DNA of 33,962 nt from a virus: positions 1 to 33,962 of the IMG/VR virus record IMGVR_UViG_3300032053_000277, one strand, 5' to 3'. The notes below the pieces were generated by a model. That model made no database searches. It had not been told where the DNA came from and saw only the letters and a list, made by a program, of their open reading frames with translations. How positions within the stretch are numbered: position 1 is the first letter of the stretch; each line of letters starts with the position of its first letter. Positions 3,870-33,043 of this stretch are shown here, one piece after another. Both the position numbers and the translations under genes were made by a program.

Positions 3870-6800
3870 ATGAGCAAGATAAAGCGGATAGTCAGATACA
3901 AGCCGCCTGCCAAGAAGACAATTATTCCCGTCACCATAGAAAACAAGGCAGTCGCAGTCAAGCCGATATTGGATGAGAACACGCGAAGGTTTCTTGGGTT
4001 TGAGAAGGGCATCGGGAAGTTCCCGGCCGACCTGACATTCTTCCAATCGCTGAGGATGAGGATGTCCGGCGAGAATGTTATCGAGCCATATCGCCAGCAC
4101 GTCTGGGTGCATGTCGCCGTCAACACCATTGCCCAAAGTATAGCGTCCATCCCGTTCAAACTGGCGAGGGGCGAGGTCAAGAGCCCGAAAATCATAGAGA
4201 GCGGGCCGATATACAATCTCTTTATGAATCCCAATCCACACATGAGCCGACACCAGTTGTGGGAGGCGACGATGATTTACCTGGAACTGGAAGGCGAGTG
4301 CATGTGGCTTCTTGAGAGGCCGAAGGGTGCCGAGAATAAGTATAACATCCTACCGACCGAGATATGGCCGGTAAGCGGTAAGAATTTCAATCCGGTAATA
4401 GAAAATAACGTGTTTGTCGGGTGGAAATACCAGCCGATGGGAAGCGCCAAGGAGGAATACCTTACCCTCGCCCAGGTGATACAGTTCAAGTATTTCAACC
4501 CATACAACTACTACCGGGGACTGTCCCCGATAAGCGCCGCGAAGATGAGCATCGACCAGGACTGGAACGCGGCGAAATACAATCTCGCCTTCTTTGAGAA
4601 CTCGGCCGACCCGGGCGGGGTGCTAACCTACAAGGGCAATACCGGTCTCAATGACGACCAGCGGAAGGCAATCCGCGAGGGGTGGGAGGACAGGCACAAA
4701 GGTCCGAAGAACACCAGAAGGGTGGCACTGCTTGAGGGCGGGATGGAATACCAGCAGACGCAAGTGAGCCATACCGACATGCTTTTCCTTGAGGGCAGGA
4801 AATACAACCGGGACGAGATTTTCGCCATATACAAACTGCCCAAGTTTGAAGATTTGAACTTTGCTACGGCGAAGGTAAACGAGAGGTCATTCTGGCAGAA
4901 GACGCTCATCCCGAAGACGAACTACCTGATGGACATTCTTGAGGCAAAGGTATTCAAGTTCATAGAGGGTGGGGAGGTATGGGGATATTTCGACACGAGC
5001 GTGATTGAGGCGCTCCAAGAGGACTTCAATGCCAAGGTGGAGACTGGATACAAACTGTGGCAGATGGGATATCCCATAAACAAGGTGAACAAGCGTCTTG
5101 AGATGAACCTTGAGCCGGTGCCATGGGGGGACGAGATATTTGTGCCGTTCTCAATGACGCCGATAACATCACTGATGGGCGGGGAAGGCAAGCCACCAGA
5201 GGAGACCACGCCGCCCGCACCCGTGCAGGAGTCGGCAAGGAAATTACTACCTGCCAAGTCAACTCTCAAGATGGACAGGGACAAATACTGGAATGGGTAT
5301 GTGAAGATGATACTCGACCCGAATGAAAAGAAGTTTCAGAGCAAGATAAAACGGTATGTCTTTGAACTGAGGTCAGAGCAGTTAAAGAGACTGGAGAGTG
5401 GGAAGACGGCCGAACAGCGGACTGCTGTCACTAAACTTGACTCGTTTGAACTTGACCAGGTCCTGTTCGCACAGCAGGAGTGGGACAAGAAACTGAAGGC
5501 GCTTACCCGTCCCCTCTACGAGACGATAATGACGATGGCGGGCGAGCAACTATCCGAAGAGATGGGCGGACTGTTCCAGTTCAACCTCACCGACCCGAAG
5601 ATGCTGGCATTCCTTAATGAAAAACTAATAAAAGTGACTGACATAAACGATACGATAAGGGGCAACCTCAGGGAATCGTTGATGGAGGGCATAAATGCCA
5701 AGGAGACGATAGGGGAACTGCAGGACAGGGTGAGGACGGTATTCAACTTTACCTCTAACCGTTCGCTGACCATAGCGAGGACGGAGACGGCCCAGACCGC
5801 ATCGGGGACGAGGTTCCTGGTGATGAAACAGGAGGGGGTGGAATACCAGGAATGGCTCAGTGCGAGGGATGAACTGGTAAGGACGACCCCGTATAATCAT
5901 GCCATTGACGGTGAGGTTGTGGCGGTTGGCGACAGGTTCTCAAACGGACTGAGGTATGCGTCTGATGTAGATGGTGCGCCGGGGAACGTGATTAATTGTT
6001 TTATAGAGGGAAGAACTAAGGTATTTACTGACAAAGGATTTAAGAGTATAGCCCATATAAAAAGTGGGGACTCGGTTTTGACCCATAATGGTAGATTCAA
6101 GAATGTAACCAGGATATTCAAAGGAAGATTAAAAATTGGTTCGGAAGTAGTGAGAATAATATTACCAAAACGGCATGGTCGTTGCAGAAAAGGTGTGATA
6201 ACCACTACTCCTGAACATAGATTTTTAACTCAACGGGGATGGGTTGAGGCGAAAGATTTGATGCAGACTGATAAGTTAATGATAATGGCTGGATTCTGTG
6301 GACATTGCGGAAAGAAGATTCCTTATTACAGGAAGTTCTGCTCAAAACTTTGTTGGAGTAGAAAAACAGTCACAGAACAATGGAAAAACCCGAAGCACAG
6401 GGAAATCATTAGCCAAAAAGCATCAATCCAACTAAAAAAGGAATATGCCAACGGCACGAGAGACAGGAATGAGATAACGAAGGTGGCGAGAAAGAAGTGC
6501 TTTGAAATATACGGTGACGGTGGATATCTGAAATATGACCCGTCGGTTCACGAGAAAGGCAAGCAAGCAATCATAAGTAAATACGGTTCCACATTGAACA
6601 TGCTTAAGCAGAAAGCATTTTCGGCGCTTGGTAAGGCGGGGTGGTATGGTTCATCTCTTGATAGGGCGATGCAGAGATTTCTTGATAATAACGGACGCAA
6701 ATATATCCAACAACACTGGGTGGGAAGGAGGCGGGTGGATTTTTATTTGCCGGACGAGAAGATGTTTATTGAATGCGATAGTCAAGCCTATCATAATGAT

Positions 6801-7103
6801 GCACAAAAAGAGAGAAGGAGAGACTTGGAAATTCTACTGCAACATCCTGACCACCAAATGGCACATTGCAACTACGGTGGGAAAAAGCCGAGGTGGGAAT
6901 TCTTTGACCTGAAAGCATTGAATCATTCGGGAACTTATGAGTTCACCGAGATTGACATAAAGAAAATAGAGAAATACCAGATAAGGAAAACGATGCCATT
7001 GTATAACTTTGCGGTTCAGGATGATGAATCATATCTGGTTTATGGAATTGTTAGTCATAATTGTAGATGTCTTTGCACATTTTCACGGGCGCCCAAGGAA
7101 TAA
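3870..7103 (+). CDS. Portal protein fused to MuF-type minor head protein, interrupted by an intein
   Basis: The 1077-aa frame minus a 355-aa intein gives a 722-aa protein. Residues about 45-425 are an HK97-type portal, the dodecameric DNA channel at the capsid vertex, with typical segments HVWVHVAVNTIAQSIASIPF and the AKYNLAFFENSADPGGVL region. A Pro-rich linker follows (about 440-460). The C-terminal third is a MuF-like domain with ARTETAQTASG, HAIDGEV and a terminal N|CRC motif that the intein splits exactly. Portal and MuF proteins are usually separate, although fusions are known. ATG 3870 has no clear Shine-Dalgarno (upstream GGTCACGAA) and lies right after a strong terminator, so its expression probably depends on read-through or an unusual initiation. 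Confidence 0.92.
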   Translation: MSKIKRIVRYKPPAKKTIIPVTIENKAVAVKPILDENTRRFLGFEKGIGKFPADLTFFQSLRMRMSGENVIEPYRQHVWVHVAVNTIAQSIASIPFKLARGEVKSPKIIESGPIYNLFMNPNPHMSRHQLWEATMIYLELEGECMWLLERPKGAENKYNILPTEIWPVSGKNFNPVIENNVFVGWKYQPMGSAKEEYLTLAQVIQFKYFNPYNYYRGLSPISAAKMSIDQDWNAAKYNLAFFENSADPGGVLTYKGNTGLNDDQRKAIREGWEDRHKGPKNTRRVALLEGGMEYQQTQVSHTDMLFLEGRKYNRDEIFAIYKLPKFEDLNFATAKVNERSFWQKTLIPKTNYLMDILEAKVFKFIEGGEVWGYFDTSVIEALQEDFNAKVETGYKLWQMGYPINKVNKRLEMNLEPVPWGDEIFVPFSMTPITSLMGGEGKPPEETTPPAPVQESARKLLPAKSTLKMDRDKYWNGYVKMILDPNEKKFQSKIKRYVFELRSEQLKRLESGKTAEQRTAVTKLDSFELDQVLFAQQEWDKKLKALTRPLYETIMTMAGEQLSEEMGGLFQFNLTDPKMLAFLNEKLIKVTDINDTIRGNLRESLMEGINAKETIGELQDRVRTVFNFTSNRSLTIARTETAQTASGTRFLVMKQEGVEYQEWLSARDELVRTTPYNHAIDGEVVAVGDRFSNGLRYASDVDGAPGNVINCFIEGRTKVFTDKGFKSIAHIKSGDSVLTHNGRFKNVTRIFKGRLKIGSEVVRIILPKRHGRCRKGVITTTPEHRFLTQRGWVEAKDLMQTDKLMIMAGFCGHCGKKIPYYRKFCSKLCWSRKTVTEQWKNPKHREIISQKASIQLKKEYANGTRDRNEITKVARKKCFEIYGDGGYLKYDPSVHEKGKQAIISKYGSTLNMLKQKAFSALGKAGWYGSSLDRAMQRFLDNNGRKYIQQHWVGRRRVDFYLPDEKMFIECDSQAYHNDAQKERRRDLEILLQHPDHQMAHCNYGGKKPRWEFFDLKALNHSGTYEFTEIDIKKIEKYQIRKTMPLYNFAVQDDESYLVYGIVSHNCRCLCTFSRAPKE
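5997..7061 (+). mobile_element. Intein with zinc ribbon and Vsr-like (EDxHD) nuclease in the portal-MuF gene
   Basis: A 355-aa intein running from Cys710 (CFIEGRTKVFTDKGFKSI, block A) to Asn1064 (GIVSHN), followed by extein Cys1065. Block B is TTTPEHRFL (TxxH). The nuclease insert is not LAGLIDADG. It has a four-Cys zinc ribbon (C810-x2-C813-x10-C824-x3-C828), a basic helical linker, and a Vsr/DUF559-like core (about residues 929-990) with VDFYLP (Asp957), IECD (Glu968, Asp970) and His975. This arrangement matches the EDxHD homing endonuclease class described in phage inteins and introns. Insertion lies exactly before the conserved CRC of the MuF motif. Splice residues look intact. Confidence 0.9.
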
Positions 7104-19660: not shown

Positions 19661-20113
19661 ATGAGCGATTCGGTCAGGGAAGACGTGATACAGAACCTGG
19701 TAACGACCCTGCAGGGGGTTACCAAAACTGCCGGATATAACATTACCATAAACCGGGTGGAGCGGATAAAGATGGTCGGGCTGGACATAAGGGAGTTCCC
19801 GACCGTCCTGGTAATACCGGCGGATGAGGTGAAGGAGCAGTCTCCGTCCGACAAGTATACCTGCCGGCTTGCGGTGACGCTGGAGTGCTGGATTCAGGAA
19901 TACGGGGACGTGAGTGCCCAGGTCAACATCCTGCTGGCCGACATAGAGAAGGCGCTGATGGTTGACCACACCAGGGGCGGGGTGGCAGTGGATACGAAAC
20001 TATTGGGCAACAGCGCATTCTACAACGAGGTAAACAAGCCCTATGGCGGGGTGGAGATAAGGATTGAGGTGCACTACCGGCACAAGTTCAGCGACCCGTA
20101 TACGGCGGGATAA
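19661..20113 (+). CDS. Tail terminator protein
   Basis: A 150-aa protein starting right after the methyltransferase stop. Its organisation (an N-terminal helix REDVIQNLVTTLQGV, central strands FPTVLVIPADE, CRLAVTLECWIQ, and the end GGVEIRIEVHYRHKFSDPY) is that of lambda gpU/HK97-type tail terminators, which cap the tail tube and bind the neck. The position directly before the tube gene agrees. No ribosome site of note; coupled to upstream translation. Confidence 0.7.
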   Translation: MSDSVREDVIQNLVTTLQGVTKTAGYNITINRVERIKMVGLDIREFPTVLVIPADEVKEQSPSDKYTCRLAVTLECWIQEYGDVSAQVNILLADIEKALMVDHTRGGVAVDTKLLGNSAFYNEVNKPYGGVEIRIEVHYRHKFSDPYTAG

Positions 20114-21248: not shown

Positions 21249-21620
21249 ATGCCAATAGCGATTGACCCGGGCAGGGTGGTGGACTACGTGCTTGAGTCGG
21301 ACAGGAAACTGCCTAAGGAGAAGCAGACCATTTTTAAGGTGAAGGTTCTCAGGGCGACGGAACTGGCACGCCTTCAGGACGAGTTCTCTGTCTTTAACCG
21401 TGACGGGAGTTTTACGATAAAGACCGGCTCGAAGGAACTTGCCATACTCGATATGGGGATAACCGGATGGGAAAACTTCAAGGACAGAAGCGGAAAGACG
21501 ATACCATTTGATGAGAAGAACCAGGACCGGTGGGATGTCCTGAGGCGGGACTATCGGACGGAACTGGCGAACTTCATCACCGAGCAGACGAGGTTGAGCG
21601 AGGACGAACTAAAAAACTGA
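21249..21620 (+). CDS. Tail assembly chaperone (gpG-like), zero-frame product
   Basis: A 123-aa protein that would coat the tape measure during tail assembly. Ribosome site GAAAGGGGGTAA (21235-21246). The N-terminal beta part (GRVVDYVLESDRKL, FKVKVLRATELARLQ) and the helical C-terminus (WDVLRRDYRTELANFITEQT) fit the gpG family. The last codons are CTA AAA AAC TGA, a perfect slippery heptamer directly before the stop, so a fraction of ribosomes should slip -1 to make the longer gpG-T type protein of about 248 aa. Confidence 0.8.
   Translation: MPIAIDPGRVVDYVLESDRKLPKEKQTIFKVKVLRATELARLQDEFSVFNRDGSFTIKTGSKELAILDMGITGWENFKDRSGKTIPFDEKNQDRWDVLRRDYRTELANFITEQTRLSEDELKN
21611..21617 (+). promoter_or_regulatory. 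-1 programmed ribosomal frameshift site, A AAA AAC
   Basis: The heptamer lies in phase CT[A AAA AAC] TGA in the chaperone frame, exactly matching the X XXY YYZ rule. The -1 frame continues without a stop to 21994. No close, strong downstream stem is obvious; GGGCAGG (21643-21649) can pair with CCTGCTC (21669-21675), but this starts 26 nt away. The stop codon abutting the site may itself favour slippage. Confidence 0.85.
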
Positions 21621-31980: not shown

Positions 31981-32014
31981 ACCCCTTTCTTGGTTGCACT
32001 ATATCTACGGCTTA

Positions 32015-32047
32015 GGGGCTCGCATTTGCGAGTCCCTTTTGCTTTTT
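32015..32047 (+). terminator. Rho-independent terminator
   Basis: GGGGCTCGC (32015-32023) pairs with GCGAGTCCC (32028-32036, one G-T pair) around a 4-nt loop, followed by TTTTGCTTTTT (32037-32047). Classic stem plus T-tract after the last late gene; ends the late transcript. Confidence 0.85.
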
Positions 32048-32079
32048 ATGTCCCTTGCCAATTATGCCTCTTTCTGAAA

Positions 32080-32115
32080 CCCCCTTATAACCCACCTAAA
32101 CCTACCCCAAACCCC
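32080..32115 (-). other. G-quadruplex-capable tract on the minus strand
   Basis: The + strand carries CCCCC (32080-32084), CCC (32091-32093), CCCC (32105-32108) and CCCC (32112-32115) with almost no G between. On the minus strand this is four G-runs with loops of 3, 11 and 6 nt. It sits between a terminator and an A+T-rich promoter region, in DNA with no gene. Confidence 0.45.
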
Positions 32116-32149
32116 TATAAAATATATTTGCATAATTTTTATATTTTTC

Positions 32150-32178
32150 TTGACAAAATCAGATAAATTTTATATATT
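32150..32178 (+). promoter_or_regulatory. Near-consensus sigma70-type promoter of the small-gene operon
   Basis: TTGACA (32150-32155), a 17-bp spacer and TATATT (32173-32178) in very A+T-rich DNA. Predicted start is 32185 or 32186. The -35 box is a perfect match and the spacing is optimal. This is the best promoter in the window and points to the small genes that follow. Confidence 0.85.
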
Positions 32179-32184
32179 ATATGT

Positions 32185-32282
32185 AGATGACGAGGATAAA
32201 ATTAAGTAATAATAACAAGGCAAGCCGGAGTCCCACCGGAGTCCCATCACAGCGGGACAGACTCGTCATCTCTCCGGCTTGC
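32185..32282 (+). ncRNA. Structured 5' leader with ABA'B' (pseudoknot) pairing
   Basis: Four arms can be seen. A is AGATGACGAG (32185-32194), B is GCAAGCCGGAG (32220-32230), A' is CTCGTCATCT (32262-32271) and B' is CTCCGGCTTGC (32272-32282). A with A' gives 10 bp and B with B' gives 11 bp, both perfect, and A' and B' are directly adjacent. The order A-B-A'-B' is that of a pseudoknot, or of two exclusive folds. Between B and A' is a smaller stem GTCCC (32241-32245)/GGGAC (32254-32258). An 11-bp tandem repeat, CCGGAGTCCCA at 32225-32235 and 32236-32246, gives alternative registers. Arm A begins at the predicted transcript start, so the 5' end would be sealed. The ribosome site of the first gene lies 10 nt after B'. 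No known riboswitch class is recognised. Confidence 0.6.
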
Positions 32283-32305
32283 TCTATTAAAAGGAGGTGA
32301 GTAAG

Positions 32306-32608
32306 ATGGATATTTTTAGATGTGAATGCGGCAGTCAATACCAACCACTTAATAAAAGCCAGCATCTCGCTGGCAAAAAACATCAAGCCTGGGAGGGGCG
32401 AAAAAATCTTATCGCTACGATACACGAAGCAACCGGCGTGCCGTCAACGTGGATTAACAGTCGTCTGAAAAAGGGATATGCCCCAAATCAGGATTGGCGA
32501 AAACTATATGAAAATTTCTCAAACAAACAAGCCACAGAGTATTTTTCCGGAGACGAAACAGAAGCCTTTGCGGAAGCACTTGACGATTTCCGAGAAGGAG
32601 GTGAGTAA
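32306..32608 (+). CDS. Small protein with U1/matrin-like C2H2 zinc finger (100 aa)
   Basis: First gene after the promoter and leader. I chose ATG 32306 because the ribosome site AAGGAGGTGA (32291-32300) has ideal spacing to it; the in-frame GTG at 32297 lies inside that site. Residues 4-26 form a finger with C6-x-C8-x11-H20-x5-H26, with the HLAGKKH ending typical of U1/matrin-type fingers, though the first pair is C-x-C rather than C-x2-C. The rest is helical (WINSRLKKGYAPNQDWRKLY), then acidic. Likely a nucleic-acid-binding regulator expressed early. Confidence 0.7.
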   Translation: MDIFRCECGSQYQPLNKSQHLAGKKHQAWEGRKNLIATIHEATGVPSTWINSRLKKGYAPNQDWRKLYENFSNKQATEYFSGDETEAFAEALDDFREGGE

Positions 32609-32609
32609 G

Positions 32610-32732
32610 ATGAAAACATATCTAATAGATGGTATCTGTGCGATAATCAGATTGACCAGCCGACTAAATTGCAAAGTAATAACAAAGTATTTCTGCGGGC
32701 AGTTACTAAATTTAACCAGATGCAAATATTAG
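32610..32732 (+). CDS. Small Cys-containing peptide (40 aa)
   Basis: ATG 32610, 1 nt after the previous stop, with ribosome site AAGGAGGTGAG (32595-32605). The peptide has four cysteines spread along its length (GICAII, LNCKV, YFCGQ, TRCKY) and is basic and partly hydrophobic. No known family. The strong ribosome site and operon position support translation. Confidence 0.55.
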   Translation: MKTYLIDGICAIIRLTSRLNCKVITKYFCGQLLNLTRCKY

Positions 32733-32752
32733 GTAATAAAAGGAGGTAAACA

Positions 32753-33043
32753 ATGCTAAACTGCACGAATGAGAATCATAAAAACTGCTCCGGACTAAGA
32801 GGCAACTGCTCCGGACTAAGGGGCAACTGCTCCGGACTAAGAGGTGAAATCTCCGCTTGCCTCTGGCTATGGAAATTCCCAATCGTCAAGATAGAGGGGG
32901 AAATAAATACTATCTGTGTTGGCTGTATGCATTTTACAAAAAAACCTACATACGAAGAGGTTAAAGCATACTGCACTAAAGAAGAATACAAAAAACTGAT
33001 AGCAATTTGGAAGGCGTTAGAAAAGATTTCCGTTATTAATTAA
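32753..33043 (+). CDS. Repeat-bearing Cys-rich hypothetical protein (96 aa)
   Basis: Ribosome site AAAGGAGGTAAAC. Near the N-terminus a seven-residue unit, NCSGLRG, is repeated three times in tandem (residues about 11-31) and encoded by three 21-bp DNA repeats. Downstream are further cysteines (SACLWLW, ICVGCMHF) and a helical Lys-rich end (EEYKKLIAIWKALEK). No family is recognised. A CxxC pair suggests zinc or disulfide chemistry. It belongs to the promoter-driven small-gene group. Confidence 0.6.
   Translation: MLNCTNENHKNCSGLRGNCSGLRGNCSGLRGEISACLWLWKFPIVKIEGEINTICVGCMHFTKKPTYEEVKAYCTKEEYKKLIAIWKALEKISVIN
32783..32845 (+). repeat. Three tandem 21-bp repeats inside the 96-aa gene
   Basis: Copies at 32783-32803, 32804-32824 and 32825-32845, beginning AACTGCTCCGGACTAAG, with only one or two differences between copies. 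The unit length keeps the reading frame, so copy number can change without breaking the gene. Confidence 0.9.

Follow-up and report, generated by a model that had tools for sequence, protein, structure and literature searches.

A candidate pseudoknot leader RNA at the head of a phage operon with an exchangeable first gene

The DNA analyzed here (the window; IMG/VR IMGVR_UViG_3300032053_000277, a metagenomic record of 33,962 bases) belongs to a tailed phage whose terminase, portal, capsid and tail genes lie on the + strand. Behind the end of this late operon, a strong promoter-like site points into ~98 nt in which two long complementary arm pairs interlock in the order A-B-A'-B'. The locus thus raises the question of whether this leader is a selected RNA structure, and what it would do for the genes that follow. 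Two related metagenomic phages, L005 and L006, carry the element at an equivalent place, and the features of the region are as follows.

32014-32037, +: terminator-like hairpin at the end of the upstream late operon (10 bp, 7 GC, then TTTTGCTTTTT)
32105-32149, +: A+T-rich, UP-element-like stretch 5' of the promoter (76% A+T), partly common to five related phages
32150-32178, +: sigma-70-type promoter TTGACA-17-TATATT, matching the consensus at 11/12 positions
32185-32194, +: arm A, AGATGACGAG, reverse complement of A', holding an AUG at 32187-32189; same letters in L005
32187-32300, +: possible leader ORF of 37 codons (weak evidence), traversing the structure and ending in the Shine-Dalgarno sequence (SD) of the next gene
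32195-32219, +: linker L1, 25 nt, A+T-rich and single-stranded; identical in L005
32220-32230, +: arm B, GCAAGCCGGAG, reverse complement of B'
32225-32246, +: 11-bp tandem repeat of CCGGAGTCCCA (copies at 32225-32235 and 32236-32246), absent from L006
32241-32258, +: inner hairpin P3, GTCCC-ATCACAGC-GGGAC (GTCCC 32241-32245, GGGAC 32254-32258)
32262-32271, +: arm A', reverse complement of A
32272-32282, +: arm B', abutting A' without a gap; homology with L005 ends here
32306-32608, +: first gene past the leader; its 100-aa product has a Cys/His-rich N-terminus and matches no family; unrelated genes stand here in L005 and L006

The promoter and the interlocked arms

The promoter boxes (TTGACA at 32150-32155 and TATATT at 32173-32178, separated by a 17-nt spacer) form the top-scoring promoter in the scanned 30-34 kb region, in agreement with the initial annotation, which had called the promoter near-perfect. 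A TTGACA-type promoter is found at the equivalent position in L005, L006 (12/12), L092 and the fragment L218, and positions 32061-32149 of the window are 89% identical to L005. The transcript start, predicted from the -10 spacing only as the first purine 7 nt past the -10 box, falls at 32185. The operon is headed by small accessory genes and RadC and is probably an early operon, as judged by its position and by the downstream RadC and nuclease-like genes. Elsewhere in the window, the terminase ORF (186-2837) harbors an intein bearing a LAGLIDADG homing domain, and another intein-like insert, showing Hint and a weak restriction-endonuclease-like match, is present in the portal/Mu-F fusion ORF (3870-7103).

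A letter-by-letter check agreed with the earlier description of perfect 10- and 11-bp interlocked stems with adjacent A' and B', and both the inner hairpin and the 11-bp tandem repeat are present in the window. Such an arrangement had been thought unlikely to arise by chance, and perfect interlocked 10 + 11 bp pairs indeed occurred in 0/60 dinucleotide-shuffled windows (both strands). Interlocked 9 + 9 bp pairs occurred 0.03 times per shuffled window, and a flush 10-bp A arm was found in 0.005% of shuffles when B was held fixed. Nested folding of the leader alone gave z = -3.55.

The computed stem energies are -14.6 kcal/mol for A, -21.3 kcal/mol for B and -7.2 kcal/mol for P3, and the best nested folds reach -32.4 kcal/mol (with B) and -27.9 kcal/mol (with A). 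The energies of A and B suggest that both stems can coexist. A pseudoknot holding both is plausible because the stems compete for no bases, and by our estimate it would be favored by several kcal/mol after the usual knot penalty; the 25-nt linker should be long enough to span the 21-bp stack. Two mutually exclusive states, which had been offered as an alternative, are not required, given that the stems share no nucleotides.

Pairing in related phages

The 1182-aa tail protein, used as a query, retrieved L005 and L006, and L092 and L218 came from later searches. These four were the only close kin among matches to the tail protein, the 29184 gene, the 33056 gene and RadC; the remaining tail-protein matches (L007-L011 and L093-L097) are distant. 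Genes neighboring the element are 76-84% identical between the window and L005. Within it, the A-linker-B stretch (46/46) and A'-B' (22/22) are identical, the hairpin stretch falls to 71% identity, and identity just past B' is 12%, with homology resuming at 32739. The L005 version of P3 (GTCCGC-GCATCT-GCGGAC) differs in its letters from that of the window and retains the pairing.

L006 retains all three helices. Its arms A and A' consist mostly of different letters from those of the window, with A' one base from B', while arm B is near-identical apart from a double change (A-U to G-C) and a single G-U. Helix A of L006 takes the form of two stacked helices (7 + 8 bp), AGGGGAG/CTCCCCT and CCGATGAA/TTCATCGG, whose 15 Watson-Crick pairs were equalled in 0/5000 shuffles; the 7-bp flush helix by itself has p = 0.016. 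The L006 arm begins ~6 nt past its predicted transcript start, which means that the element does not conserve a flush 5' end. Hence the proposed start exactly at arm A accords with the prediction of 32185 in the window, and it is not essential to the element, being shifted in L006. L006 also lacks the 11-bp tandem repeat, which does not bear out its inclusion as a part of the element.

In an alignment of the three sequences, 97% of cells pair, as against 0/500 shuffles reaching this value and 38-49% in slid controls, and 6/26 pairs are changed on both sides compared with 1.9 in shuffles; this count leans toward the structure, because the register of the L006 A arm was picked to fit it. The number of full copies is three, and the window and L005 are 91% identical across the promoter-leader stretch. 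In these few sequences the arms do covary, which is the outcome that the initial annotation had asked of relatives. The promoter-like site, the arms, their conservation and their covariation are features of the sequences themselves. Because the L005 hairpin changed yet stayed paired, and arm A of L006 was rewritten yet stayed paired, the pairing appears to be under selection. Taken at the level of sequence, the element is very probably a real structured RNA selected for its pairing.

The other two relatives are partial or lack the structure. L218 is cut by its contig end inside the element, its last letters (GTCATCTCTCCG) being those of the A'/B' junction of the window, and no B partner is visible in what remains. 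Pairing is possible between its SD-AUG segment, GGGGGAAAGATGAT, and GTCATCTCTCC, whose letters are those of A'/B' in the window. In L092 the promoter and an SD-AUG are present, and no pseudoknot was found there. Downstream of the first gene of L092, at 21270-21303, is a hairpin (CGGCTTGA..TCAAGCCGG) with letters resembling arms B and B'.

Known families, further copies and the first gene

Rfam 15 gave no match in the window at the gathering threshold, and in a permissive search the best match to the leader was MicC, at 19.6 bits against a gathering threshold of 90. The leader DNA had no real match in phage and plasmid collections. An IMG/VR scan for GCAAGCCGG-N40..70-CGGCTTGCT returned 78 stretches, among which the promoter and a flush A arm were present only in L005 and L006. 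A promoter-plus-B scan found the structure in none of the 80 loci among the matches listed, and the IMG/VR scans yielded no additional complete copy among the matches listed. Bacterial and archaeal genomes, scanned twice, yielded no relative, and the related records contain no second copy of the element. An identity as tRNA or tmRNA was dropped. For a hammerhead or HDV ribozyme no core was seen, the topology is wrong, and there is no Rfam ribozyme match. In HDV-like ribozymes two pseudoknots are nested, P4 sits between P1' and P2', and there is a catalytic core; here A' abuts B', leaving no room for P4, so the fold does not correspond.

The first downstream ATG, at 32306, follows the end of B' (32282) at the 24-nt distance given by the initial annotation. 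The identity assigned there to this gene did not hold up: no library gave a zinc-finger match, and searches of general, phage and defence libraries returned nothing convincing for its product. The first gene after the leader encodes 100 aa in the window, 53 aa in L005 and 79 aa in L006, and these products are mutually unrelated. Since homology between the window and L005 resumes only at 32739, different small genes occupy the interval between the leader and that point. The leader persists while the following gene swaps, which indicates that it belongs to the promoter and operon head rather than to any one gene. Thus, of the suggestion that this is a new phage regulatory RNA, what stands is a structured leader with conserved, covarying stems and no Rfam match; control of a zinc-finger gene in particular does not stand, as the leaders of L005 and L006 precede unrelated genes.

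A possible translational switch and its alternatives

In the window, L005, L006 and, up to the contig end, L218, the structure is traversed by an ORF that opens at the arm-A AUG. It ends inside the next SD in the window, at an ATGA overlap with the next ATG in L005, and by in-frame fusion in L006. The chance of such an open frame is 0.11-0.33 per leader. Divergence in the hairpin alters four residues, with no conservation at the protein level. Selection on the leader ORF for a protein product is unsupported, in that amino acids change where RNA pairing persists. In L006 the two A helices cover both the SD (GGGGAG) and the AUG (CCGATGAA) of an ORF with SD spacing, and in L218 SD and AUG are apparently covered too, through the A'/B' junction pairing. 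Arm A of the window and L005 contains the AUG only, with 2 nt between it and the predicted transcript start and no SD before it; when the leaders are aligned on their promoters, this AUG does not fall where the other AUGs do.

We propose that a strong host-type promoter heads the operon and that its transcript begins with the element, a ~100-nt leader RNA acting in cis. In the predicted fold, A would pair with A' and B with B', and the abutting A' and B' would let the two helices stack coaxially, with the A+T-rich linker bridging the stack and P3 placed in the second loop. Arm A would carry the signals for starting translation of the first reading frame past the promoter. A:A' would then mask ribosome entry and B:B' would lock the mask, such that ribosomes could load only before the 3' half is transcribed, or when a factor (a phage protein, a host protein or the ribosome) opens the fold. 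The pseudoknot may in this way determine when, or how strongly, translation occurs at the operon head, whichever accessory gene follows. We rank this masking of initiation first because SD and AUG (L006, apparently L218) or the AUG (window and L005) fall in arm A; as a mechanism read from position, it is put forward tentatively. Against it stand the small number of full copies, two of the three being so nearly identical, the displaced AUG without SD in the window and L005, the lack of protein-level conservation in the leader ORF, the missing B partner in L218, and L092 with its promoter and SD-AUG and no knot.

Several other functions would make use of the same features. The leader ORF could instead serve an attenuation or leader-peptide switch, which we consider unlikely: ribosomes on the ORF would cover B and block the B:B' stem, whereas in the untranslated state B:B' would form and either stop transcription or mask or expose the next start site, so that translation of the ORF is coupled to the next gene. 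An ORF spanning the structure, with its 3' end in the next SD, at an ATGA overlap or fused in frame, would suit such a switch, as would the U-rich tails past B' in L005 (TTATTTT) and L006 (TTTTCTT) and the alternative partner of B' in the start region of the next gene of the window. However, the window has no U-tract past B' (CTCTATTAAAA), a B-B' loop of 41-64 nt is unlike an intrinsic terminator, and the open frames are just mildly improbable, with residues that vary where pairing is constant. The U-rich tails also bear on a free-standing small RNA (a type III or AbiF-like RNA antitoxin, or a trans-acting phage RNA) ended by B:B' and the tail. Its ~100 nt with both ends paired, and the order of promoter, structured RNA and small gene in one transcript, resemble AbiF/RCd22 and type III antitoxin systems (PMC12373285). 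This is nevertheless very unlikely, as the window lacks a terminator tail, no ToxN, Abi_2 or other toxin family is found downstream (Pfam, NCBIfam, PADLOC), and downstream proteins are unrelated among phages with the same RNA, the reverse of what is expected of an RNA-toxin pair.

The position directly past a strong promoter, independent of the next gene, and the sequence conservation of B and single-stranded L1 would be consistent with processive antitermination, in which RNA polymerase, bound by the nascent leader, would resist termination across the operon. HK022 putL likewise lies just downstream of PL (PMC9378689), and the put sites are short structured RNAs right behind early phage promoters. 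They consist of two tandem stem-loops of ~70 nt, unlike the interlocked ~98 nt here, which has no Rfam match. In L006 the downstream region (to 23500, ~6.3 kb) contains a single weak + strand terminator-like site, and such sites are fewer overall than in shuffles. With the region nearly terminator-free there would be little to suppress, and we regard this function as quite unlikely. Pairing of the first nucleotides could also protect the operon mRNA from 5'-dependent decay. The predicted start is the first base of A in the window and L005, and the coaxial model buries the 5' end at the A/B junction, but the distance from start to arm, 0 nt in those two, leaves single-stranded 5' tails of ~6 nt in L006 and ~10 nt in L218, and a plain hairpin would suffice without a pseudoknot; protection as the function is highly improbable. 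Least probable is that the inverted repeats act as DNA (an operator, replication origin or recombination boundary). Homology of the window and L005 does end at B' and resume at 32739 with an exchanged cassette between, and the intergenic stretch is A+T-rich and conserved. Yet the A-B-A'-B' order cannot make a single cruciform, the promoter points into the element, and the changed letters of L006 arm A with pairing kept would be unexpected for a protein-binding DNA repeat.

Returning to masking of initiation, the closest known system is the gene 32 mRNA pseudoknot of T4, T2 and RB69, an autogenous translational operator. The T4 knot is located 67 nt 5' of the start codon and serves to nucleate binding of the ssDNA-binding protein that the gene itself encodes (PMC3014915). 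Both are phage leader pseudoknots near the mRNA 5' end, with coaxial helices, an A+U-rich single strand and proposed control of translation initiation, and the two-helix, stackable leader pseudoknot of the gene 32 type is present here as sequence only. In contrast to gene 32, helix A itself would contain initiation signals, the helices have more base pairs, the linker is arranged differently and the next gene is variable; no ssDNA-binding protein gene follows the leader, where unrelated small proteins without a family match are found. In the E. coli rpsO (S15) operator, the translation start region forms part of a pseudoknot, which can prevent initiation (PMC8470358). The present knot covers SD and AUG in L006 and apparently L218, and in the window and L005 an AUG without SD; unlike rpsO, no ribosomal protein gene is downstream, and topology and loop lengths differ. 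A 2010 review considered the T4-type gene 32 knot as possibly the sole viral example in translational autoregulation (PMC3014915). Translation-controlling phage leader pseudoknots are very few, and the element adds a compact, covarying candidate without a database record. It may, though this is doubtful, represent an undescribed class, a leader pseudoknot that masks initiation at the operon head as a gene-independent controller of an exchangeable first-gene cassette. If it is such a fixed controller, phages could drive new accessory cargo without evolving fresh regulation each time.

Repeats are found around the small genes. An 18-nt ribosome-binding-site cassette, AAGGAGGTGAGTAAGATG, is repeated exactly at 32291-32308 and 32595-32612 and occurs in L005 before unrelated genes, making it a possible seam of gene cassette exchange. 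L005 has tandem strong hairpins between small genes at 19760-19900 (CGCCCTGCAACGGGGGGCG, GGGCCCGGCG..CGCCCCGC), in two copies. At 32783-32855 of the window, 21-nt repeats encode NCSGLRG in ~3 copies, with many more copies at 20065-20370 of L005.
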